DNA from: Stigmatella ashevillena
GTDB lineage: Bacteria > Myxococcota > Myxococcia > Myxococcales > Myxococcaceae
Assembly: GCF_028368975.1 (NCBI RefSeq)
Contig: NZ_JAQNDM010000002.1
Coordinates: forward strand, 8,798,425-8,862,424
DNA length: 64,000 nt
Direction of reading: 5' to 3'
Part shown: one piece after another, positions 8,876 through 49,483 of the stretch
How positions within the stretch are numbered: the first letter of the stretch is position 1
Layout: each line of letters opens with the position of its first letter
Position numbers and translations under genes: made by a program
Notes under the pieces: model-generated
The model's database searches: none
The model's input: only the letters and a program-made list of their open reading frames with translations
What the model was told of the DNA's origin: nothing

Positions 8876-10310
<1,435 letters not shown>

Positions 10311-10390
10311 GCCATCCTCCCTGCATGTGTCGTTGCTTTCTCTCGGCACCAGAGCGTGCATGGCCACGTCCTCTTCACGATGGAGTCGCC

Positions 10391-11005
10391 ATGTCTGCCT
10401 ATGCCGCTGTTGCCCGCCCACCGCGTACCCTCACGGAGAAGGAGGTGAACCTCCTTTTGCGCGTCACGGGGCAACACCGGGACGGATTCCGAGACCACTG
10501 CCTGTACAGCCTCGCGCTGGCCTCGGGCCTGCGAGAGCACGAGTTGGTCGCCCTCAACATCGGCGACATCTTCAACGAGCGTGGGCGAGCCCGTCGGCAC
10601 GTGACGTTGACTGTCTTTAAGGGCAGCCGCCGGCACCCGCGCCCCCAGGAAGTCGTCCTCTCGGACACGGTGCGCGCGAAGCTGGAGAAGCTCCTGCGCC
10701 TGAAGCGCTCGCAGGGGCACGACGTGGGGCCCCTGGCGCCGCTCTTCCTGAGCCGCAAGGGCATGCGCTTGTCCACGCGGCAGGTGCGCCACGGCTTCAC
10801 GGTGTGGCAGGAGCGCGCGGGGCTGGAGCGGCACCTGAACTTCCACTGCACCCGCCACACCGCGTGCACCGGGGTGTACCGGAGGACGAAGGACATCCGC
10901 CTCACCCAGCGCTTCGCGCGCCAGCTCAGCATCCACTCCACCGTCATCTACACGCACGCCTCGGACGACGAGCTGGTGAGCGTGACGCAAGAGTTGCCCT
11001 GCTGA
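10391..11005 (+). CDS. compact tyrosine recombinase
   Basis: A 204-residue protein with only the catalytic domain of the phage integrase family. It has [19 protein letters not shown] with Arg48, HCTRHTA with His152/Arg155, and [10 protein letters not shown] with the presumed nucleophile Tyr187. The second His of the usual LGH motif appears to be Gln179. The N-terminal core-binding domain seen in full-length (~300+ residue) integrases is absent, although the protein starts cleanly with [14 protein letters not shown]. It is divergent from terminase. It could be a XerC/D-like resolvase or transposon relic; the serine recombinase at 23.3 kb is the better candidate prophage integrase. Confidence 0.8.
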
Positions 11006-13964: not shown

Positions 13965-14299
13965 CGGGGTCGTGCCTCCCACCACTCGCGCACCAACTCG
14001 AGGAAGTCTTCCAACGGCATGGCGACGAGGGGCGGCTGGTGGTCGTCCTTGCACACGGCCAGGGGCCAGCGCCCCGCCGGGCACGTCTCTACCGCCTGCC
14101 GCAGGGCCTCTCGGAGGTTGGTGCGCTGGTGGGCCTTTGCTTCCAGCCAGAAGCACGGCACTTCGACGTCGGACACCTCCTGGCCGGAGCGGTACTGGAG
14201 GCCGCGGCGGATGAGGGCCTCGGGCATGGCCTCGCGGAAGCGGTGGACGAGCGTCCGTTCCCACTCCGCGCCCTTGCGACGGGAGGAGGCGCCGCTCAC
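13961..14299 (-). CDS. PDDEXK-like phage nuclease
   Basis: A 112-residue protein with the pattern of small phage Holliday-junction or VRR-type nucleases: SSRRKGAEWERTLVHRFREA, then LQYRSGQEVSDVEVPCFWLE followed by AKAHQR, that is an Asp ... Glu-x-Lys metal site. It ends with hydrophobic strands (PLAVCKDDHQPPLVAMPLED). The GTG start at 14299 overlaps the exonuclease stop by GTGA. It is probably a recombination or packaging nuclease acting on branched phage DNA, together with the exonuclease next to it. Confidence 0.7.
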   Translation of the reverse strand: MSGASSRRKGAEWERTLVHRFREAMPEALIRRGLQYRSGQEVSDVEVPCFWLEAKAHQRTNLREALRQAVETCPAGRWPLAVCKDDHQPPLVAMPLEDFLELVREWWEARPR

Positions 14300-15048
14300 G
14301 AGACACCTCCCGACTCCTCTAGCAGGCGCTCCAGGTGGCCGCCTCGGGACATGCGGATGGCCAGGCACCGTGCCACCTCCAGCGCACAGCGAGCGTCGGC
14401 CATGGCGCGGTGAGGCGTAGGCCGGTGGAGGCCGAAGCGCTTGGCCAGGGCGTTGAGGGAGAGGGACTCCACCTCACCTGTGGCCAGCAGCGGCCAAGCG
14501 AGGCTGGCGGTGTCGAGGCGGTGGTAGTCGACGCTGGGCAGGGGCAGTTCAGTGCGGCGGTAGCCCTCGACGAGGAAGCCCCAGTCGAAGCTGGTGTTGT
14601 GGCCGGCTACGAGGGTGCCTGCCACGAGCGGCGTCACGGTGGCGAGGACTTCCTGCAGGGGCAACGCGTCCCGCCACGCCTCGTCGGAGTAGCCGCACAC
14701 GGCCAGGGACTCGGGGTGGGCGTTGGCCAGCCGGGAGGGCTGCACGCGGGTCTCATACTCGGCCAGCACGTGGAGACTGCGGGCGTCGACGCGGAGGATG
14801 GCTACCTCCAGCACTTCGTGCCGGGAGGCGTCCAGGCCCGTCGTCTCCAAGTCGATGAAGGCGAGGGTGCGAAGCTGCGGCGGGAGGCTGGGAAAGAGCG
14901 GCGGGTGGAGGAAGGAGACAGGGGTGGTGTGGGAAGCAGGATGAGCGAGCAGCACGATGCGACCTCCTTGGCCCAGAACCTGGGCGAGTGGTGTTTGGCG
15001 GCGAGGGAGTCCAGCTCGGCCTTCAAGCTCGTTTCGCAGTTCGCTCAT
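14296..15048 (-). CDS. DnaQ-like DEDD 3'-5' exonuclease
   Basis: A 250-residue protein with the DEDDh exonuclease motifs: LAFIDLETTGLD (Exo I, Asp and Glu), VAGHNTSFDWGFLVEGY (Exo II) and TPHRAMADARCALEV (Exo III, His and Asp). The family trims DNA or RNA 3' ends. The ATG at 15048 with a GGAG ribosome site is preferred; the frame stays open to 15150, where an alternative start would add a Cys/His-rich segment (RECDDCLATRHCTGQEAH). It is coupled to the next gene. Confidence 0.85.
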   Translation of the reverse strand: MSELRNELEGRAGLPRRQTPLAQVLGQGGRIVLLAHPASHTTPVSFLHPPLFPSLPPQLRTLAFIDLETTGLDASRHEVLEVAILRVDARSLHVLAEYETRVQPSRLANAHPESLAVCGYSDEAWRDALPLQEVLATVTPLVAGTLVAGHNTSFDWGFLVEGYRRTELPLPSVDYHRLDTASLAWPLLATGEVESLSLNALAKRFGLHRPTPHRAMADARCALEVARCLAIRMSRGGHLERLLEESGGVS

Positions 15049-15182
15049 GGCGTGGGCCTCCTGGCCGGTGCAGTGGCGTGTCGCGAGACAGTCATCACAC
15101 TCTCTCCGAGCGAGACATGAGGTTGAAGCGGGGAGACGGAGTGGCTCCATGCGTGTGTTTCACAGGCGCGGGGCCCGCTCAT
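15045..15182 (-). CDS. possible 45-residue coupling peptide
   Basis: A short frame starts with an ATGA overlap on the upstream gene's stop and ends with an ATGA overlap on the exonuclease start, which would couple translation across the gap. The peptide (ETHAWSHSVSPLQPHVSLGE) is His- and Ser-rich with no known motif. The alternative is that this DNA belongs to an N-terminally extended exonuclease. Confidence 0.35.
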   Translation of the reverse strand: MSGPRACETHAWSHSVSPLQPHVSLGESVMTVSRHATAPARRPTP

Positions 15183-15787
15183 GGCGACGCCTCCGCGGAG
15201 GCCGGACGCTTCACGAAGGACATGACGCGAGAGCCCGGGAAGGCAGACAGGACGCGCACCAGGGTGGCGGCATGCTCGGGGGTGAGTTCCCTCCGAGAAT
15301 GGCCGGTGTAGGCTGGGACGAGCCACACCTCGCCGTAGGTTTCGGAGGCGAAGCACACCTCGGCGCCGAGAGCCTTGAAGCTGGCGATGTCCTCGTCAGT
15401 GAGGCCGCTCAGGACGGAGTGCGGGGCCTCGGCTTGCGGCGCCTTCACATCGAGAGACGGAGCTGGCGGCGAGGGCTTGGAGGTGGGGGCTGGGGCGAGC
15501 TTCTTCGAGCCAGCTTCGGTCAGCGGGTGGCCGAACAAGTCCACGGTGGCTGGGGCGGACTTCCCCTGAGTCACGGGGGCAGGTGGCGCGGCTACGTCAC
15601 GAGGAGGCCGGGCTTGCCCGTTTACCTTCAGCCACTCGGTGCAGGTGCCCACACCGGGCAGGGCGCAGCCACCGCGAGGCCGGTAGTGCAGGCAGCGATT
15701 GTCCTCGTCGCGGACGTACGCTTCACACGTCACGCCGGGAGGGCGTTGAAGAGCAGGGGTGGGCTGGAGGTGGTGTGTAAGGGCCAT
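15179..15787 (-). CDS. phage hypothetical protein with N-terminal Cys motif
   Basis: A 202-residue protein. The N-terminus holds a Cys-rich segment (VTCEAYVRDEDNRCLHYRPR then GGCALPGVGTCTEW) that could bind zinc. A Pro/Ala linker follows, and then a C-terminal domain (DIASFKALGAEVCFASETYG, HAATLVRVLSAFPGSRVMSF). It is the first gene of the minus-strand replication/recombination block and starts immediately beside the origin-like region. I do not recognise its family. The ATG at 15787 has no strong ribosome site. Confidence 0.6.
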   Translation of the reverse strand: MALTHHLQPTPALQRPPGVTCEAYVRDEDNRCLHYRPRGGCALPGVGTCTEWLKVNGQARPPRDVAAPPAPVTQGKSAPATVDLFGHPLTEAGSKKLAPAPTSKPSPPAPSLDVKAPQAEAPHSVLSGLTDEDIASFKALGAEVCFASETYGEVWLVPAYTGHSRRELTPEHAATLVRVLSAFPGSRVMSFVKRPASAEASP

Positions 15788-15965: not shown

Positions 15966-16242
15966 TGTGGACAGTGTGGACAGCCTGTGGACGGGCTCCT
16001 GTCCACGGAAACTGCGAGTGATTGCAGGGGGATAGGTGGCTGTGGACAGTGTGGACAGGTTTTGAAGAGTACCCCTACGTATGCGTGCGCGCACGCGTAT
16101 TGAATATTCAATATGGGCGCGCACGCATACGTGTGTCTCCCTATAAAAGCTGTCCACACTGTCCACAGTGAGTATTTCAATAGAGAAATCATGGAGATAA
16201 GTGTGGACAGAGAGCTGTCCACACCTGTCCACGCTGTCCACA
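15966..16242. other. origin-like array of TGTGGACA boxes
   Basis: Within 277 bp there are nine exact TGTGGACA boxes (plus strand at 15966, 15975, 16041, 16050, 16202; minus strand as TGTCCACA at 16151, 16160, 16216, 16235). There are also three one-base variants at 15986, 16000 and 16226. TGTGGACA is close to the DnaA box TGTGGATAA. Pairs are spaced 9 bp start to start and are placed almost symmetrically about a palindrome centred near 16104.5, whose middle is AT-rich. The array sits between divergent phage operons. This is the layout of a replication origin or a partition or operator centre; origin is my preferred reading. Confidence 0.7.
16077..16132. repeat. large palindrome at the centre of the box array
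   Basis: A perfect 16-bp inverted repeat (ACGTATGCGTGCGCGC at 16077-16092 and its complement at 16117-16132) encloses a 24-bp core. The core contains the perfect palindrome TATTGAATATTCAATA (16098-16113). The alternating purine-pyrimidine arms could form Z-DNA or a cruciform, and the AT-rich centre could melt. Confidence 0.9.
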
Positions 16243-17156
16243 CCCGTTCGCCAAGTGAAGCTGGCGTGGCTGTGTGTGAAGGCACATGCGAAGCGGGCAG
16301 GTGTGGTGGCCGGACGCGGTATGGCCCAGGCCTATGAATGGCCGCAGGAGGACCAGAAACTGCCTCTATGCGCGCGAAAGAGGAATGGGGGCTGCCCTGT
16401 TGAGGCGGAGGCCTTTCGTGTCATCTGCGGCCTTCCAGAGTCGCATCGCTCACCGGCATGCGGCGCGCAAGCCGCGATTTCTGCCGGGTGCGCGCCTGTG
16501 GAACGAGGGGCGATGAGACTGCGAGGAAAAGAGGGTTCACTGGCTGCACGTCCGAATGCACATACAGCCCATCCCCTCGAAGACGGAAGCCGAGAGGCGG
16601 CGCGCTGGCATGAAAGTAGCAGGGCGCAGCCGTGTTGCTGACTTCAAGGCGGCCTGGGTGTCTTCATTGAAGAATCGGATGCGATGGAAGTGTCGCTGAA
16701 GCCGTGGCTGTCTGAGGATTGGGAATTCAGAGGGGATTGAAACGCTGTGGGGAAACTGCGTGAATTCCAGACCCGACGAGGGGGGTGGATTTGTTGTGAT
16801 TGGCTTGATTCTGACGGTGGCTCGGGTGGGCTAATGCGTCGTTCAGAGTGGGCGTGGCCTGCGCTGTGGGAGTGGTGTCCTGACTTTCTTGGGCACTCCG
16901 CGTTCCCGTTTCCGGGCCTCCAGTTGGAAGGGCGCTCGTCCGTTACTCTAACGGAGGCTTGGGAGCGGCTTGGACGCGCGTGTAGCGCTCTCTCTTCCTT
17001 CGACTGACTCGCCGCAGCCCCAGCCCCAATGCTCCCGCAGAAGACGGGAACGCCTCGGAGGCGCTGGCGCTATTTCCTAAACGGGGCTCGCTCTTCTCTC
17101 CCCACTCGCCTGGCTTTTCCCGCGTGCTGAGCGCAGGGCCAGGGCGGCATACATCT
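16243..17156. other. leader region with no well-supported gene
   Basis: The stretch between the box array and the sigma-like gene has several open frames. Only the weak candidate at 16747 is listed separately. Base composition near 16640-16760 is lower in GC than the flanks. Confidence 0.4.
16747..17007 (+). CDS. weak candidate small protein
   Basis: An 86-residue frame from a GTG, rich in Trp (GGWICCDWLDSDGGSG, EWAWPALWEWCPDFL). A GGGG lies rather far upstream of the start. There is no recognised family. It could be a small early phage protein or a chance open frame. Confidence 0.3.
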   Translation: MGKLREFQTRRGGWICCDWLDSDGGSGGLMRRSEWAWPALWEWCPDFLGHSAFPFPGLQLEGRSSVTLTEAWERLGRACSALSSFD

Positions 17157-17954
17157 GTGAGTCGTAACTGGAATGCTCTTCATCGAGAGCTGAGCGTGAC
17201 CCTCCGGACGGCTGAGGCGCAGCGCGCCTACCGCTTGGTGCGGCGCGACTGGGAGGCGCTCTCCGGCTTCGAGCAACCGGACGCCCTTGTTTCATTTCTC
17301 ACCGCTCGCGAAGGTGAGTCTCACGTCAAGGATGGGTTACTCGCGGGGCTCGTTGTCCTGGTGCAGATGGGAGCCGCGGTCCGTTTCTTCGTGGCGTTGT
17401 TGTGGTTGGGGCTGTGGCCAGGGTTGGACGGCGTGTATCGCCGATGTCTCAGGCGAATGGAGCGCGAGCCCGCTGAGGTGGTGTCTTCGATTGCCGCGTC
17501 CTTCATGGGCCTCGTGGTGCGCGTCAACTTATCCAGCGTCCAGCGCGTGGCCGCGACGCTCGTGCGTGGTACGGAGCGCGATGCCCTCAAGGCTTGGTGC
17601 AAGGAACGGGAAGAACAGCGTCAGCGCGCGCGTCTCGCGTCGCTGTCGGAGGCGGATGGCTGGGAGCCTGTGGTGCAGTGGCCTGTTCCATTCGTATCTC
17701 GTGCCCGCTCCTTCAACTCCGAGGTGGAGGAACTGCGCGCATGGCTCCTTCCGCTGGTGGGCGAGGACACCGACTTGGTGGTGTCCGTCCTCCTTCGCGA
17801 GGAAGACTACGTCGATGCCGGAGCAAGTCTCGGGCTTGCGCCTGCAGCGGTACGCAAGCGCGTCCAGCGGGCCCTGGAACGCCTGCGGAAAATGACGAAA
17901 AAACTCCCCGAAAAAGATTTCCTGTCCCAAACCGGCGGGAAGGGGTGCTTTTAG
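17157..17954 (+). CDS. sigma-like regulator of the prophage early region
   Basis: About 265 residues. The C-terminal part has a sigma region 4-like helix-turn-helix: DYVDAGASLGLAPAAVRKRV then QRALERLRKM. The N-terminal half is helical and contains an unusual hydrophobic stretch (LLAGLVVLVQMGAAVRFFVA), possibly membrane-associated or a buried helix. The start is uncertain: GTG at 17157 (VSRNWNALHREL) is chosen, and GTG at 17124 is also open. The last 13 codons (KDFLSQTGGKGCF) lie within the 39-bp inverted repeat. A role in transcription control of phage genes is likely. Confidence 0.65.
   Translation: MSRNWNALHRELSVTLRTAEAQRAYRLVRRDWEALSGFEQPDALVSFLTAREGESHVKDGLLAGLVVLVQMGAAVRFFVALLWLGLWPGLDGVYRRCLRRMEREPAEVVSSIAASFMGLVVRVNLSSVQRVAATLVRGTERDALKAWCKEREEQRQRARLASLSEADGWEPVVQWPVPFVSRARSFNSEVEELRAWLLPLVGEDTDLVVSVLLREEDYVDAGASLGLAPAAVRKRVQRALERLRKMTKKLPEKDFLSQTGGKGCF
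17916..17954. repeat. 39-bp inverted repeat flanking the origin region, right copy
   Basis: This is the reverse complement of 15824-15862 with three mismatches. It forms the 3' end of the sigma-like gene, including its stop codon. All three differences change amino acids, so similarity is better explained at the DNA level or by recent duplication than by protein constraint. Confidence 0.8.
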
Positions 17955-18149
17955 AGGTGATGGATTTTGAAACAACCTTGAGGGAGGCGGCCGACGGGAG
18001 CCGCGATTCGCGTGTCCCCGGTTCGTGCCGCCTGGCTTTGGGTGGGTGAAGGGGCCTCCTCGCTCCCCAATTCATTCCTGTTTCGACACTCCCTGTCCGC
18101 TTCGGCGGACAGCAACGCCCCTGTATTGCCAGCAACCCAGGAGAACTCA

Positions 18150-18830
18150 ATGAAGACAGCAGCGCGAAACAACTTTGAGCAAGATGAAACATGCGGACGA
18201 TTCTTCGCACGCATCGACGGACACCGTCTCCGAGTGGTGGTCCTGGGCGAGCCAGGGTCGGGCGGAGAGGGGCGTAGCGCGTGCCTCTGCTGCGAGTGCG
18301 CGGAAGCCCAGGCCAATGACTACGTCCGCCTGCCGGGTCTCTTCCGCCGCTGGGAAATCCAGCACGTGGTGGGCACCGGAGCGGACTTCAACATCGAGGC
18401 GGCGGGCTCCACGGAGGATGGCACCGAGCTGTTCTCGGTGTACCGGCGCGAGCGCCCCGCCCCCACCACGCACCGCCCGGACCGGCAGCTTTCTCGAGAA
18501 GAGGCGGTGGCCTTCCAGTCGTTGCGCCTGCATGACTTGCCGAAGCTGTATGCGGCCGAGGAGGCGGGAGCGGCGAGTGGCACGTCGCCCGGAGCCGCTT
18601 CCAGCAGGAAGGCCGCTGAACCTGTCGACATGAAGCTGGCGCAGGCGATGGCCACGGCACTGAAGGTGCTCCCGCGTGAGGCAGTGGACCGTTTTCTTCA
18701 GAAGTTCGGCGTGCAGCGCATTCGCGACTTGCCGGCGTCGAAGGGAGAGGTGGCGCGCGCCTTCGTCGATGCCCTCGTCACGGAGTACTCCGCGGAGAGC
18801 CTTGCGGACGTGGACCCCTTCGGGCTGTGA
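18150..18830 (+). CDS. phage early protein, possible recombination factor
   Basis: A 226-residue protein starting MKTAARNNFEQDETCGRFF behind a strong CAGGAGAA site. The N-terminal domain has a Cys cluster (SACLCCECAEAQ) and mixed strands (GLFRRWEIQHVVGTGADFNI). The C-terminal helical region (AVDRFLQKFGVQRIRDLPAS, ARAFVDALV) resembles the C-terminal tail of some phage single-strand-annealing proteins. It sits between a sigma-like gene and the primase-helicase, as recombination genes often do. The family is not established. Confidence 0.6.
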   Translation: MKTAARNNFEQDETCGRFFARIDGHRLRVVVLGEPGSGGEGRSACLCCECAEAQANDYVRLPGLFRRWEIQHVVGTGADFNIEAAGSTEDGTELFSVYRRERPAPTTHRPDRQLSREEAVAFQSLRLHDLPKLYAAEEAGAASGTSPGAASSRKAAEPVDMKLAQAMATALKVLPREAVDRFLQKFGVQRIRDLPASKGEVARAFVDALVTEYSAESLADVDPFGL

Positions 18831-19029
18831 GCGCGCCTCGCTGAAGCTGGTTGCGGTAGCTCTGCGCGTAGGGGGCCTCTCGCGCGCCTTTCTGAGGACA
18901 ACAAGAGGACGGGAAGGTGCCGTTGCTCCGGCGCCACCACGCGGAGCGCCGCCAGCAGTACTCCACGGTGCTGGGGGTGGCGACCGCAGCCAAAGCACAT
19001 TGAATCGCTGCAGGGAGTGAGCACCTTCG

Positions 19030-22000
19030 ATGACGACACCTTCTGACACCACTCCGAACCCCGACGCCATCCGTGCCACCTGGCGGTGGCTGGCCCATGC
19101 GGCGCATGGCGTGAGCGAAGTCCGTGTCATCCGCCCCGGAGGTGGAGGCATTGTCGGCCTGGGCTTCTTCGACGACGAGGAGGCCTTCGTCGCGGCCTGC
19201 GAGGCGGCCAATGCCGATGGCAACGTGTACGTGGGCATCCAGCCGCGTCCCCGGCGCCTGCTCAAGTTCGCCCCCAACGTCCTCCGCCCCTTGCGGACTG
19301 GGGCGGGTAGCAAGGACATCGAGGTGGTGACCGCCACAGTGGTAGACCTGGATCCGGTGCGCCCCAAGGACACGGCTAGCACCGAGGACGAACTCTCGCT
19401 GACGCTCCAGGTGGCGGAAGCAACTGCGGCCTGGTGCGAAGCGCAGGGACTCGTTCGCCCGCGGCTGATGATGAGCGGCAACGGGGCGCAGCTGTGGTTC
19501 GCCTTGCCGCCGCAGTCGCTGGAAAGCGAGCTTCACGAGCGCGTGCAAGCGGGCTTGAAGTCCTTCGAGGCGGAGGTGCGTGCCCGTTTCCAATCCGAGC
19601 GCGTGCATGTGGACTCCATCCATGACGTGGCCCGCATCATCAAGGTGGTGGGCACCGTCAGTCGGAAGGGAGCGGGGACTGCGGAGAGGCCTCACCGAGC
19701 AGCTCGGGCCCTCGCCAGTTTCGAGCGCGTGGAAGACGCAGGACTCCTGGAGCGCCTGCTGGGAGCGCCTGCGCAGCAGCAGATGGCAAACCTGGCGAGT
19801 CCAGCTCAGGTGGCGTTACCTCTGGCTCCTCCCAACGCGGCACCGCTGGGGACGGTGAAGGCCCGCCGGACGGCGACGGGGGAGTATGACTGGGCGCACC
19901 CGGTGGAGATGTGCGGCCCGGTGCAGCGCCTGTGGGAGCAGGGGGCGGAGGACCGGAGCGTCGCCATCTTCAACATGGTGCGCTTCTTCGTGCACAAGGG
20001 GCTGGGCCTCGATGAAATCACCGAGCTCGTCCTCGAGTACGACAGGCGCGGCTTAGGGAAGCTGAAGGGCAGGGATGGCGTCGGCTACGTCCGCAAGGCG
20101 CACGAGAAGGTGGTGGCTACCGCCCGCGAGGATGGCACCGTGGCGCCCCCCTGCCACTCCCTCCAGGGACTGGGCTTCTGCCGTGTCAACCGTGAGCCGG
20201 ACGTGCGCTGCGAGCTGTACGACGTCGTCTTCGATGTCGAGAAGGCCGTGGAGGCCTTGGCCACCGTGCCAGCCCAGGACGTGGAGTACCGCCTCAAGCC
20301 CATCCTGGAGGCCATTGCCCACCGTCCGCCGTCCGCGCAGGAGAAGTACCTGGGCCTGCTGGAGGTGCGCACCGGCCTGGCTGCGCAGAAGCTTCGGCTG
20401 GCCATGGCTCGTGCTGTGCGCACCCGAGCGGACAGAGAGGGCTCGGAGGGCGCGAACTCGAAAGGAGGGAAGGGCAGCAGCGGCGACGACACCATCGACG
20501 GCGAGGTGTACGAGGACGCGTACTGCTACTACACGGTGACGCAGCGGGGGGAGGCGAAGGCGATTTCCTCCTTCACCTTCACCCCGAGGGCCCTCTTGGA
20601 AACCGAGGAGGGGGAGGTATTCCTCGGGGACGTCCGCACGGACAAGGGCACCCGCATGGAAGGAGCACGGCTGCCGCGGCGGGCCTTTCACTCGCGCAAG
20701 GAGCTGCTGCTCCACCTACCCTCCGTCCACACGCAGTGGACGGGCAGCGACAACAACGTGCAGGGCTTGCTGCGCGCGGTGGCGCGTCGGCCTGTGCCTC
20801 GCCTTCCGGGCACCACCACGCTGGGAGACTTCAAGCGAGGGGAGCACCACGTTTGGGTGGCGCCTGGGCGCACCCTTGGGAAGGAGGGCTTCCTCGCGGC
20901 CTCCCCCGTGGCGTACCTGCCGAATGGCACCTCACTCGAAGCGCGTATTCGGTATGAGGCCACGGACGACGACTCCTTCCTCACGGTGGCGCGCACCGTC
21001 TTCGAGTACCTGCCGCAGCTCAACACGCCGCAGGTAGTGCTGCCCATGCTGGGGTGGTTCTTCGCCACACCGATGAAGCCACGCCTCATGGAGAAGGTGG
21101 GCTCCTTTCCGCTCCTCTTCATTCACGGGACACAGGGCAGCGGCAAGTCGAGCATGTGCACCGACGTCTTCTGGCCCCTCTTCGGGGTGCCTTCCTCCGA
21201 CGCCTACAGCGTGACGGAGACGGAGTTCGCCCTGGTGAAGCTGCTGTCCGCCACGCGCTCCGTGCCGGTGGTGGCGGACGAGTACAAGCCCTACGACATG
21301 CCGCTCCACCGGCTCCAGATGCTGCACCGCTACATGCGCCGTCTCTACCGAGGGGAGACAGAGGAGCGAGGCCGCTCGGACTTATCGGTGGTGAGCTACC
21401 GCCTGCAGGCGCCGCTGTGCGTGGCTGGCGAGACACGTCCCACAGAGGCTGCTCTCCTCGAGCGCCTGCTGACCGTCAACCCGGAGAAGGCGACGCTGAA
21501 GCGACGCGACTGCCGGGCGGCCTTCCGCAAGCTGAAGTCCGTCAACCTGGCCCTCTTCGCACCTCGCTACATTCAGTTCTGCCTGGGGCGGGACTTCGAG
21601 GCGGACCTCCAGGTGGCCCGCGCAGTGACGGACGTCTTCCTCAAGGACAGGGAGGTGCCCCCACGAGTCGTCGACAACGTGACGGCCATGCTGTTGGGGC
21701 TGCACCTCTTCGAAGAATTCGCCCAGGCATGCGGCTACGTGCTGCCCGAGGACCTGGGGGCCCGCGAAGCAGTGGACGCGGTGTTGGCGGATATTCTCGA
21801 AACGGAAGGAGGGGTGAAGAATGCCCTCGACGCCTTCCTCGAAATGCTGGGCGTCATGGCCATTCAGGGGGAGCTGCGGCACAGGATGCATTTCGTCTTC
21901 GAGGGCGAGCGTCTCTGCCTGCACTTAGAGAGTGCATATGACGCCTTCCGCGCCCACTGCCGACGCATCGGCTACGAGGGCGAGGTGGTGGACATGAAGG

Positions 22001-22233
22001 CGCTGCGACGCCTGCTGCAGGAGAATCTCCGCGAGGGCGGCTACGTCGTCGCGCTGAATGAGCGCGTCTGCTTCGACGGGAGGATGAACCGCCGCCGCGC
22101 CGTGGTGATGGATTTGTCTCGCACGCGACTCGTCTCGGCGGAGGACTTCCCCCATTCCCACGAGGGTGGGAGTGGCTGGCGTGCGCGCAACGGCGACTCC
22201 GGCGACTCCGCAGCGGAGGACGCCAGCGGGTAG
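19030..22233 (+). CDS. phage primase-helicase (AEP-like primase plus SF3/AAA-like helicase)
   Basis: A 1067-residue protein. The N-terminal third has archaeo-eukaryotic-primase-type motifs: VVDLDPVRP (Asp-x-Asp, about residues 106-112), LMMSGNGAQLWFALP (about 147-160) and HVDSIHDVARIIKVVGTVSR (about 195-215). A long middle region follows. The helicase has a Walker A at about 697-707 (FIHGTQGSGKSSMCTD) and a Walker B (VPVVADEYKP). C-terminal helices resemble DNA-binding wings. It would prime and unwind at the phage origin, and it lies 3 kb from the box array. The ATG at 19030 is preceded by GGGAG. Confidence 0.8.
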   Translation: MTTPSDTTPNPDAIRATWRWLAHAAHGVSEVRVIRPGGGGIVGLGFFDDEEAFVAACEAANADGNVYVGIQPRPRRLLKFAPNVLRPLRTGAGSKDIEVVTATVVDLDPVRPKDTASTEDELSLTLQVAEATAAWCEAQGLVRPRLMMSGNGAQLWFALPPQSLESELHERVQAGLKSFEAEVRARFQSERVHVDSIHDVARIIKVVGTVSRKGAGTAERPHRAARALASFERVEDAGLLERLLGAPAQQQMANLASPAQVALPLAPPNAAPLGTVKARRTATGEYDWAHPVEMCGPVQRLWEQGAEDRSVAIFNMVRFFVHKGLGLDEITELVLEYDRRGLGKLKGRDGVGYVRKAHEKVVATAREDGTVAPPCHSLQGLGFCRVNREPDVRCELYDVVFDVEKAVEALATVPAQDVEYRLKPILEAIAHRPPSAQEKYLGLLEVRTGLAAQKLRLAMARAVRTRADREGSEGANSKGGKGSSGDDTIDGEVYEDAYCYYTVTQRGEAKAISSFTFTPRALLETEEGEVFLGDVRTDKGTRMEGARLPRRAFHSRKELLLHLPSVHTQWTGSDNNVQGLLRAVARRPVPRLPGTTTLGDFKRGEHHVWVAPGRTLGKEGFLAASPVAYLPNGTSLEARIRYEATDDDSFLTVARTVFEYLPQLNTPQVVLPMLGWFFATPMKPRLMEKVGSFPLLFIHGTQGSGKSSMCTDVFWPLFGVPSSDAYSVTETEFALVKLLSATRSVPVVADEYKPYDMPLHRLQMLHRYMRRLYRGETEERGRSDLSVVSYRLQAPLCVAGETRPTEAALLERLLTVNPEKATLKRRDCRAAFRKLKSVNLALFAPRYIQFCLGRDFEADLQVARAVTDVFLKDREVPPRVVDNVTAMLLGLHLFEEFAQACGYVLPEDLGAREAVDAVLADILETEGGVKNALDAFLEMLGVMAIQGELRHRMHFVFEGERLCLHLESAYDAFRAHCRRIGYEGEVVDMKALRRLLQENLREGGYVVALNERVCFDGRMNRRRAVVMDLSRTRLVSAEDFPHSHEGGSGWRARNGDSGDSAAEDASG

Positions 22234-22324: not shown

Positions 22325-22522
22325 ATGGTGATGACCCCGAGAATGTCGAAGCAGGAGGAGGCTGACGTCGTGGCTGATAGGCAGCCGAGCGCCCTTCAGC
22401 AGCGTCGCGATGATGCAGTCGACGTGTTGTCCGAGGCCCTCTGGGAGTTGTGGTTGCGTCGGCATGCGCAGGCACAACGAGAAGCGCCTGCGTGGGACGC
22501 GGAGGAGAGCGCGCATGGCTGA
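22325..22522 (+). CDS. small phage protein before the DUF2924 gene
   Basis: A 65-residue acidic helical protein (SKQEEADVVADRQPSALQQR, DVLSEALWELWLRRHAQAQR). AGGTGG eight bases upstream supports the ATG at 22325; ATGs at 22331 and 22343 are alternatives. The function is unknown. It lies just upstream of the recombinase cassette. Confidence 0.5.
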   Translation: MVMTPRMSKQEEADVVADRQPSALQQRRDDAVDVLSEALWELWLRRHAQAQREAPAWDAEESAHG

Positions 22523-22610
22523 GCCGCAGACTCTCGACTTGTCTTCTTCCGGGGACAGAGCGTCCATGGTTTTCGCCCGAGGGCGTGCTGCCCTGGGCGA
22601 AGGAGACACC

Positions 22611-23144
22611 ATGGCGAAGAAAGGGACGGCACGTGCCGCGCGCCAGCAGTTGGCGGACGTGCCGCAGCAACTGGCTGCGCTGGCCAGCATGTCGGTGCCG
22701 GAGTTGGCGGAGAAGTACCTGGAGGTGTACGGCGAGCCCACGCGCAGCCGGAACAAGGGCTACCTGCAGAAGCGCCTGGCCTTCCGGATTCAGGAACTGG
22801 CCGAAGGGGGCCTCACGGCGCGTGCCGTGGCACGCATTGCGGAGCTGGGCGATACGCTGCCTGAGCGCTGGCGGATGCGGCAGGTGGAGGAGAGGAAGCC
22901 CGCTACGCCTCCTCCTGCCCCAGCCGACGGGCGCGACACGCGCCTGCCGCCCCTTGGGACGGTGCTGACACGCGTGTACAAGGGCAAGCAGCACCAGGTG
23001 ACAGTGCGTGAGGGCGGCTTTGAGTACGAGGGCCAGTTGCACCGTAGCCTCTCCAGCATTGCCAAGCAGGTGACGGGGACAGCCTGGAATGGCTTTAGTT
23101 TCTTCGGCCTCAAGTCCGGCAGCTCCAAGGAGGTGACGCCATGA
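22611..23144 (+). CDS. DUF2924 family protein
   Basis: A 177-residue protein with the DUF2924 pattern: SVPELAEKYLEVYGEPTRSR, NKGYLQKRLAFRIQELAEGG, then LPPLGTVLTRVYKGKQHQVT and GFEYEGQLHRSLSSIAKQVT. The family is regularly encoded directly upstream of large serine recombinases and may assist DNA binding or direction of recombination; its role is not proven. The start at 22611 is chosen because AAGGAG lies five bases upstream. The frame is open to 22515, where it would overlap the previous gene. It is coupled to the next gene by ATGA. Confidence 0.85.
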   Translation: MAKKGTARAARQQLADVPQQLAALASMSVPELAEKYLEVYGEPTRSRNKGYLQKRLAFRIQELAEGGLTARAVARIAELGDTLPERWRMRQVEERKPATPPPAPADGRDTRLPPLGTVLTRVYKGKQHQVTVREGGFEYEGQLHRSLSSIAKQVTGTAWNGFSFFGLKSGSSKEVTP

Positions 23145-23341
23145 GCGGCCCCTCCTTCTTCCAGACGCACATGGGACAGCGCTTCTTCGAGGGGACGGTG
23201 CCGCAGCTCGTCCGAGAGCTGCAACGCCTTAACGGCAATCTGGAGCGGCTGGTGGCCGTGGCGGAGCAGCTCGCCGGGCAGAAGCAGTCGTCGAGCGCCG
23301 AGTCTCTGGAACCGGCGCCCGGGGATTTGGAGGGGAGATGA
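23141..23341 (+). CDS. small coiled-coil protein in the recombinase cassette
   Basis: A 66-residue protein with a leucine-rich helix (VPQLVRELQRLNGNLERLVA) likely to form a coiled coil. It overlaps DUF2924 and the recombinase by ATGA at each end. It may be a partner or recombination directionality factor, a guess based only on size and position. Confidence 0.65.
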   Translation: MSGPSFFQTHMGQRFFEGTVPQLVRELQRLNGNLERLVAVAEQLAGQKQSSSAESLEPAPGDLEGR

Positions 23342-24891
23342 GGAAGAGCAAGTTGCAGCCCGCGGATACGAAGCGCTGCGCCATCTACACACGCAAGTCC
23401 ACTGCGGCGGGCTTGGAGATGGAGTTCAACTCCCTGGACGCCCAGCGCGAGGCCTGCCTCGCCTACGTGCAGCGCCAGCCCGGCTGGGGGCTGGTGGACG
23501 AGAGGTATGACGACGGTGGCTTCACCGGCGCAAACATGGAGAGGCCCGCGTTCCAGCGCCTGCTGCAGGACGTTGATGCCGGGCGGGTGGACGTGGTGGT
23601 GGTGTACAAGGTCGACCGTCTCTCCCGCAGTCTCCTTGACTTCGCGAAGGTCATGGAGCGCCTCAACGCGGCGGGCGCCTCCTTTGTCTCGGTGACGCAG
23701 AACTTCAGCACGGCGGACGCCATGGGACGTCTCACCCTCAACATGCTGATGTCCTTCGCCGAATTCGAGCGGGAGATGATTGCGGAGAGGACGCGGGACA
23801 AGGTGGCCGCCGCGCGCCGCAAGGGGAAGTGGACGGGAGGGCGTGCGCCGCTGGGCTACGACGTGAAGGACAAGCGCCTCGTGGTGAATGAGTACGAGGC
23901 GGTGGTGGTGAGGGAGGCCTTCGCGTTGTACCTCCAGCACCAGAACGCCTCAGCGGTGGCGCGCCTCCTCAACGAGAAGGGGCGGAGGACGAAGCGGTAC
24001 GAGGCCCAGAGTGGTGCCACGCGCGAGGCTCGGGCCTGGACGACGCAGGACGTGCTACGCCTCTTGAGCAGCCCCTTGTACGCGGGCTTCGTTGCCTACG
24101 GGAACGAGACGCACCCGGGAGAGCACCCGGCCCTTGTGGACCGGAGCACCTTCCACCAGGTGAAGGACATGCTGGAGGGCCGCAGCCCCGGCCTCCAGTA
24201 CCACGGGCGCAACCCCGACTACGTGCTGAGGGGCCTGTTGCGCTGCGACCTGTGCGGAGAGGCAATGACGCCGGGTTCCACGCGCAAGGGCGCACGGGAG
24301 TATCGTTACTACCGCTGCACCACGCGGGACAGGAGGGGGAAGGAAGCATGCCGGGCAGCTCCCATATCGGCCCCTGCCCTGGAGGACTTCGTCGTCGCCC
24401 GGCTGAGGGATGTCTCGGTGGGTGAAGGCTTCGCCGCGCAGGTGCACGCCCGCCTCGCGGCGCGGTTGGAGGAGAAGCACAAGGCCCTGCGCGCCGAGCA
24501 CGCGCAGCTTCCGAAGGACATGGCCAGGCGAGCCGTGGAGTCCGAGAAGTGGGTGGACTCCCTCTCCAAACTGGAGGGCCCTGCCCGGCGCCTTGTGGAG
24601 GAGAAGCTGACGGCCGCGGAGGAGGAGGCTGCCGACATGAGGAAGCGGCTGGCGGAGGTGGAGCGCGCCCTGGACGCCATGGAAGGGGAGAGGCTGGAGG
24701 CGGCGTGGGTGGCCCAGGCGCTGGCGGACTTCGACGCGGTGTGGAACGCCCTCACAGCCACCAATCGGGGGCGCCTGCTGCGGGCCCTTGTCGGCCGGGT
24801 GGTGGTGAACGAGGTGACCGGCCGCGTCGACGTGCACCTTGTCCATTCCGGTGAGGCCGCGGCGACCAGGCGCGAGGAGGCTGTCGCGTGA
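23338..24891 (+). CDS. large serine recombinase, likely prophage integrase
   Basis: A 517-residue protein with all parts of the large serine recombinase family. The resolvase domain has the catalytic Ser21 in YTRKSTAAG and arginines in VDRLSRSLLDF. The recombinase domain includes KWTGGRAPLGYDVKDKRLVV. A zinc ribbon follows (LRCDLCGEAM ... YYRCTTRDRRGKEACR), then a coiled-coil C-terminus (about 390-450). It would cut and join attP and attB without needing host factors. It is at the right-hand end of the phage genes, as expected of an integrase next to an attachment site. No att core can be named from this sequence. Confidence 0.92.
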   Translation: MRKSKLQPADTKRCAIYTRKSTAAGLEMEFNSLDAQREACLAYVQRQPGWGLVDERYDDGGFTGANMERPAFQRLLQDVDAGRVDVVVVYKVDRLSRSLLDFAKVMERLNAAGASFVSVTQNFSTADAMGRLTLNMLMSFAEFEREMIAERTRDKVAAARRKGKWTGGRAPLGYDVKDKRLVVNEYEAVVVREAFALYLQHQNASAVARLLNEKGRRTKRYEAQSGATREARAWTTQDVLRLLSSPLYAGFVAYGNETHPGEHPALVDRSTFHQVKDMLEGRSPGLQYHGRNPDYVLRGLLRCDLCGEAMTPGSTRKGAREYRYYRCTTRDRRGKEACRAAPISAPALEDFVVARLRDVSVGEGFAAQVHARLAARLEEKHKALRAEHAQLPKDMARRAVESEKWVDSLSKLEGPARRLVEEKLTAAEEEAADMRKRLAEVERALDAMEGERLEAAWVAQALADFDAVWNALTATNRGRLLRALVGRVVVNEVTGRVDVHLVHSGEAAATRREEAVA

Positions 24892-49402: not shown

Positions 49403-49410
49403 TCGTTCAG

Positions 49411-49483
49411 CTCCCCGACGTGGACTCGAACCACGGACATGGTGATTAACAGTCACCCGCTCTACCAGCTGAGCTATCGGGGA
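49411..49483 (-). tRNA. tRNA-Asn (anticodon GTT)
   Basis: A 73-nt cloverleaf. The acceptor TCCCCGA pairs with TCGGGGA, followed by G. The D arm is GCTCAGCTGGTAGAGC. The anticodon GTT (49448-49450, complement) sits in GGTGACTGTTAATCACC, and the T arm is GTGGTTCGAGTCCAC. The 3' CCA is not encoded. tRNA genes are frequent integration sites for islands, and the defence operon ends 580 bp away. Confidence 0.97.

Follow-up and report, generated by a model that had tools for sequence, protein, structure and literature searches.

What is a nearly symmetric array of twelve octamers doing in a prophage of Stigmatella ashevillena, and which protein reads it? The first-pass annotation of this locus considered it a candidate prophage replication origin made of DnaA-box-like repeats, and listed host DnaA and a sigma-like protein encoded nearby among the possible binders. 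Here we analysed the window, that is the whole stretch of 64,000 nucleotides at G000:C2:8798425-8862424 in a host genome of 10.95 Mb (two contigs), together with its relatives. In our reading the array very probably serves a Myxococcaceae prophage as its replication origin, and its boxes would be bound by the prophage's own 1067-aa primase-helicase through a C-terminal winged helix.

The array and its symmetry

The candidate origin, delimited by the box scan and by comparison with relatives, occupies positions 15966-16242 of the window as a near-perfect dyad of 277 bp. Exact TGTGGACA/TGTCCACA octamers occur nine times in the 64-kb window and all nine fall inside this segment; dinucleotide shuffles of the window (n = 100) contained 1.0 on average and 4 at most. 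When one mismatch is allowed the array holds twelve octamers, and elsewhere in the window a segment of equal length contains two at most. All twelve boxes fall into mirror pairs on opposite strands within 1 bp, around a centre at 16104.0 or 16104.5, and random placement (n = 2000) paired 4.7 boxes of twelve on average and 9 at most. The tandem pair TGTCCACANTGTCCAC was found three times across the entire 10.95-Mb genome, each time within the array. The twelve octamers, their near-mirror arrangement about 16104.5 and the 9-bp spacing within pairs, all of which had been described in the first-pass annotation, were thus found again in the window sequence. The separation of the strands into a left and a right side holds for most boxes but not for box 4 and its mirror partner at 16202, which are both reversed.

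From left to right, the array starts with an outer tandem pair of TGTGGACA boxes at 9-bp spacing (15966-15982, plus strand), followed by box 3 (TGTGGACG, one mismatch; 15986-15993, plus), by the reversed box 4 (CGTGGACA, one mismatch; 16000-16007, minus) and by the left inner tandem pair (16041-16057, plus). The 91-bp centre (16059-16149) consists of alternating purine-pyrimidine tracts, inverted arms and a palindrome. Beyond it lie the right inner tandem pair (16151-16167, minus), a stretch of 70% A+T (16169-16201) that is a putative unwinding element, box 9 (16202-16209, plus), which is oriented opposite to its neighbours and mirrors box 4, and the right outer boxes 10-12 (16216-16242, minus). 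In the centre, the perfect 16-bp arms (16077-16092 and 16117-16132) and the 16-bp palindrome TATTGAATATTCAATA (16098-16113) are present as previously reported. Concerning base composition, the sign of the GC skew does not change at the array, and the skew gives no support to a bidirectional origin.

Gene neighbourhood and state of the prophage copy

In the left part of the window, minus-strand genes of tailed-phage type encode a portal, a terminase-like protein and a Mu-F-like head protein. An integrase ORF (9300-10421, plus) lies there too and overlaps the terminase-like ORF (10325-11005, minus) on the opposite strand by about 100 bp. To the right of the array there are the ORF for the 1067-aa primase-like protein, a DUF2924 gene and a large serine recombinase gene, and then probable cargo. 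The latter (26425-47085) comprises two Ser/Thr kinases, a GHKL-type ATPase, a DruA-domain protein, a CoiA_N protein and a 2027-aa ORF. A tRNA-Asn gene (49410-49483), possibly an attachment site, is found close to the element's right part.

The array lies between divergent operons, about 2.8 kb from the primase-helicase ORF that starts at 19030, in agreement with the 3 kb noted before. The first leftward gene beside it encodes a conserved 202-aa protein with no family match (15179-15787, minus), followed by a DnaQ-like exonuclease fused to the remnant of a PD-(D/E)XK exonuclease, the latter being 391 aa and whole in relatives (14296-15150, minus). The first rightward gene encodes a 276-aa protein whose similarity to sigma region 4 is weak and below the cut-off, and which does not track the box class described below (17124-17954, plus). 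It is followed by a fusion of a p143-like N-terminus and a putative SSB C-terminus, with an internal deletion compared to relatives (18012-18830, plus), by the proposed initiator (19030-22233, plus), which covariation, structural model and fold point to as an AEP-type primase plus helicase with a winged helix at about residues 929-1040, by the DUF2924 protein (22410-23144, plus) and by the large serine recombinase of the element (23338-24891, plus).

In close relatives the gene order is constant: leftward of the array a DnaQ-like exonuclease, a PD-(D/E)XK exonuclease and p203, and rightward the sigma-like sig266, p143, the SSB-like ssb247, the helicase hel505, the primase, DUF2924 and the recombinase. 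Compared with these relatives the window copy is decayed: the PD-(D/E)XK gene is mostly gone, p143/ssb247 is partly deleted, and hardly anything is left of hel505 (at 18831-19029). The array and the primase ORF are intact.

Relatives of the array and box classes

We gathered 31 regions plus two more, 29 loci of named genomes and four viral loci; ten proteins were then located on the window and on 53 of these stretches. The search of related prophages that the first-pass annotation had recommended, run as a DNA similarity search, returned the array in 6 of the 96 genomes of the family, versus 3 of 96 for the exact pair geometry; the primase is present in 25 of the 96 (E <= 1e-30). The named relatives reached through the primase are records of Myxococcus, Corallococcus and others, most of them myxobacteria. 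Used as a DNA query, the array gave no matches in collections of phages and of plasmids.

The intergenic sequences of 24 non-redundant elements sort into three box classes. Class A (n = 7) has the octamer TGTGGACA, class B (n = 13 plus one truncated copy) the octamer GGTGGCAG in a syntenic region with the same layout, and class C (n = 3) a looser GTGGACAG-type octamer. Exact counts are unmixed, with no B octamer in A arrays and no A octamer in B arrays. Across classes the layout is maintained: inner pairs face each other over about 81-110 bp, the spacing within a pair is mostly 9 bp, outer boxes lie beyond, and an AT-rich stretch is found just to the right of the inner right pair (58-64% A+T in class A, 62-73% in B and 76-80% in C). 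The box word is therefore exchanged at constant layout. Boxes are more conserved than spacers in both larger classes (0.91 versus 0.75 in A, 0.92 versus 0.84 in B). Near-identical copies from other collections (for example L085, L087-L090, L092, L094, L095, L098, L116 and L118) were kept outside the class counts, as was L114. In this last locus (G020:C76) the array is matched twice, at a distance of about 850 bp, with DUF2924 and a recombinase next to the matches; no primase was detected on its 14-kb stretch, and the locus is possibly an element dependent on the initiator of a relative.

The comparison also changes the weight of the central palindrome. Perfect arms in the other six class A arrays reach at best 6-12 bp, and because the perfect 16-bp arms occur in the window copy only, the palindrome was rejected as a general core of the mechanism. 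As a separate observation, the centre of each of the seven class A arrays contains alternating purine-pyrimidine runs of 18-27 bases, where shuffles reached maxima of 12-15; the runs measure 12-14 bases in class B and are absent in class C.

Going farther from the window, a TGTCCA-type octamer occurs at least four times inside 400 bp in 4 of 13 distant loci with the primase (L041, L102, L104 and L107). In the other nine a k-mer scan found no TGTCCA-type box family, and the generality of the array is therefore established for the close family alone.

The prophage family is present twice in several genomes. Eight genomes carry more than one typed array, of different classes in five (G002 and G054 with A and B; G062, G064 and G078 with B and C) and of the same class in three (G075 and G076 with two B, G020 with several A). 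We considered whether box classes are incompatibility groups, but this was discarded, the co-residence tally being no better than chance expected at the class frequencies.

The protein that tracks the box class

To find which protein varies with the boxes, we counted, for each mapped protein, the alignment columns that completely separate class A from class B. The primase alignment includes 5 A and 12 B rows, because the contigs of L112 and L113 lack a primase and the primases of L105 and L106 are truncated. The primase has 55 such columns versus 0-4 in eight other nearby proteins: none in the DnaQ-like exonuclease, the PD-(D/E)XK exonuclease, p203, sig266, ssb247 and the recombinase, one in hel505, and four in DUF2924, located at its N-terminus. 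When labels were permuted on the primase (n = 500) the mean was 0.02 columns and the maximum 4. Among further neighbours, w13155, w13961 and w23141 have none, and w24888 and p143 have one each; w12043 has 15, but with two class B rows only and a between-class identity that is not below the within-class one it is uninformative.

Along the primase the discriminating columns become dense at about residue 698 and are most concentrated at 983-1035. Over the final windows of the protein, identity is 0.88-0.89 within classes versus 0.53 between them. At residue 1023 of the window primase, an arginine, all class B copies have cysteine; all A, C and distant copies shown keep arginine, except L108.

Trees lead to the same region. 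The A/B label changes once on the tree of the primase C-terminus, where the split is already formed with support 100, twice on those of the primase N-terminus and of DUF2924, and 4-5 times on the others. A one-clade AU test rejects the A/B split for sig266 (p 1.8e-162), hel505 (2.3e-4), p203 (2.8e-4) and ssb247 (1.2e-4). Of these, p203 and sig266 are encoded on either side of the array, and the genes for sig266, ssb247 and hel505 separate it from the primase. For the primase N-terminal tree the same test does not reject the split (p 0.48), and the signal is thus only partly specific to the C-terminus. Two loci, L028 and L117, combine a class B array and a B-type C-terminus with an A-type primase N-terminus. 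Since the C-terminal tree contains a single A/B split, the pattern is one of locked co-inheritance and not of repeated coevolution. As far as comparative covariation goes, these data support a binding specificity of the primase-helicase for the boxes, in which the C-terminal domain of the initiator would specify the repeat sequence.

The same measurements bear on a different function for the array, namely an operator or divergent-promoter control region, bound by a repressor or by the sigma-like protein, with replication starting elsewhere. Such a function would suit the position between divergent gene sets, where symmetric paired operators are usual, and a first rightward gene encoding a protein with weak sigma-region-4 similarity; the initiator could also autoregulate. 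We nevertheless regard it as improbable: neither p203 nor sig266 follows the box class in columns or in trees, the protein that does is the primase-helicase, and a promoter scan, which covered the sigma-70 type only, found no promoter of that type. The sigma-like sig266, in particular, was ruled out as box binder by the absence of covariation, and this part of the first-pass annotation is not retained.

In another rival reading the octamers are host DnaA boxes and DnaA opens the prophage origin. DnaA boxes of the CTGTCCACA type occur in high-GC bacteria, and CTGTCCACA fits 7 of 9 positions of the E. coli DnaA box TTATCCACA. The class A box is indeed DnaA-box-like; the class B box is not. We consider a DnaA origin very improbable, given that class B prophages of the same host family have GGTGGCAG at identical spacing, that the tandem pair is found nowhere else in the host genome and that the boxes track a phage protein. 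In the region around host dnaA no box cluster was seen, oriC itself not being located. Of the original proposal, therefore, one half stands: the prophage origin is well supported, because the array is conserved, lies in a replication gene module and has a box class that tracks its own primase-helicase. The other half, a function for DnaA, is unsupported, because sister prophages in the same host family hold the layout with GGTGGCAG and the tracking residues lie in the C-terminus of the phage primase. From the comparison of prophages, the likely reader of the repeats is the prophage's own primase-helicase rather than host DnaA.

A partition centromere is scarcely credible, as the model for it, the Myxococcus plasmid pMF1, in which ParB binds iterons beside the par genes (according to part of the text of PMC3235114), has a AGATGTCT-like unit, and no ParA/ParB family was found among the flanking proteins scanned, a subset of the ORFs.

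Predicted structure of the primase-helicase

For the primase-helicase as initiator, structural predictions are available at two scales. The model of the whole 1067-aa protein has a moderate mean pLDDT of 61, with residues 691-708 and 723-822 below 50. In this predicted structure residues 490-1044 match SaPIbov1 Rep (Foldseek E 1.3e-8, VIA Z 14.7), the helicase half matches SCCmec Cch (Foldseek E 8.3e-6, VIA Z 11.5), and the N-terminus matches Prim-Pol domains (VIA Z about 9.8). The isolated C-terminal domain was modelled with a mean pLDDT of 77 and is predicted to be a winged helix, in which the discriminating residues fall on helices and on a two-strand wing. Its top VIA match is the C-terminus of SaPIbov1 Rep (Z 7.1), tied with other winged helices and weak when taken alone; the DNA-binding domain of P4 alpha is absent from its fold match lists, an absence that carries no weight.

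Comparison with known systems

The C-terminal domains of SaPI Rep and Cch2 recognise origin repeats, according to part of the text of PMC7581432. Like SaPIbov1 Rep and SCCmec Cch, the prophage protein would have a helicase and a C-terminal winged-helix half of the same predicted fold, and the array, with its 12 boxes in 277 bp, resembles SaPI-type origins in gathering short repeats, the putative initiator sites, in one cis region. At the sequence level identity is low, about 9-12% in the structural alignments, and unlike Rep and Cch the prophage protein carries an N-terminally fused primase. The position is also different: SaPI origins lie directly downstream of rep, while the prophage array lies upstream of the primase, 2.8 kb away in the window and about 5 kb away in relatives, between divergent genes of a tailed-phage-type element. 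The array would work like a SaPI Rep/Cch origin, but given this position we do not class it as SaPI-type.

Phage P4 offers another comparison. Its alpha protein reportedly recognises the origin, as stated in the title of Ziegelin 1993, and joins primase and helicase in one protein, as in the prophage. The repeats annotated at its origin are octamers of the TGTTCACC type, some of them in 9-bp pairs and in opposite-facing groups; the P4 pair CTGTTCACACTGTTCACC can be compared with the window pair CTGTCCACACTGTCCACA. On the other hand, P4 has two separate cis regions (ori1 and crr), and alpha has a zinc ribbon, Toprim, D5_N, DUF5906 and Pox_D5, none of which is present in the window protein. BLASTP between the two proteins gave no meaningful match, and neither residues 491-1067 nor the whole window protein matched the Toprim, D5_N, DUF5906 and Pox_D5 domains of alpha.

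Concerning myxobacterial prophages, Mx-alpha of Myxococcus xanthus is described, in parts of PMC6070905 and PMC5562445, as a polymorphic lineage often present in several copies per genome. The family of the window prophage resembles it in having multiple copies per genome, in a comparison by description only.

The same octamer in unrelated viral contigs

Viral contigs were searched with the tandem pair TGTCCACANTGTCCACA, which gave at least 120 loci, and with the reversed and class B pairs as controls. Among the matches listed, two or more pairs were present in 60 of 120 TGTCCACA-pair loci, in 10 of 120 reversed controls and in 5 of 120 class B controls. A DUF5906 primase-helicase, searched for with a profile that we made from six of the same viral loci and that is biased to that extent, was encoded, among the matches listed, in 36 of 60 multi-pair and 15 of 60 single-pair loci. 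In the controls listed it was found in 3 of 120 loci (reversed) and 0 of 120 (class B).

Contigs such as L155, L162, L178 and L191 share with the window the TGTCCACA octamer and the 9-bp pairs, and in several of these contigs pairs face each other about 100-115 bp apart. In these contigs and others the arrays lie near terminase genes and a DUF5906 primase-helicase, and L178 has a P22-like portal. The primase-helicase is of a different family from that of the window: hhalign aligned 23 columns only, around the P-loop, and the window primase profile matched none of the 360 listed viral loci. Since no relationship can be recognised between the sequences of the viral DUF5906 primases and that of the window protein, the octamer is either an old shared word or has been reached repeatedly.

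Proposed mechanism and meaning of the box classes

Our conclusion is that the array is very probably an origin of the iteron type, read by the AEP-helicase initiator that the element itself encodes, which is a known general kind of origin. New are the host group, as far as literature searches go, the symmetry and the natural specificity classes. In the open-licence literature searched, no replication origin is described for these Myxococcaceae prophages. From the arrangement of boxes and domains we infer a possible course of initiation. The primase-helicase would use its C-terminal winged helix to bind the boxes, spaced by 9 bp, and two oppositely facing multimers would probably assemble on the two mirror halves. 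The protein would then melt the adjacent AT-rich stretch, a helicase ring would be loaded after melting, and the N-terminal AEP domain would prime in both directions. The decayed window copy, too, may still fire.

A broader idea, which we put forward tentatively and hold to be possible although somewhat short of likely, is that the family has naturally orthogonal origin-initiator pairs and that TGT(C/T)CAC(A/C) octamers in 9-bp pairs are an iteron word used across primase-helicase families. If this is true, the array and the primase C-terminus would be a co-inherited module, whose parts lie about 5 kb apart in most relatives with the intervening genes reshuffled. At least two replication-specificity groups (A and B, perhaps C) would then exist, which could allow the co-residence of related prophages, and the same word would serve SaPI-Rep-like and P4/DUF5906-like primase-helicases in unrelated phages. 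The natural exchange of box classes in itself poses a question of specificity, namely which winged-helix residues would read which base, and also yields a sequence rule for locating phage origins of the primase-helicase type. Plasmids are rare in myxobacteria, and origin-initiator pairs of this kind might possibly furnish compatible replicons for them.
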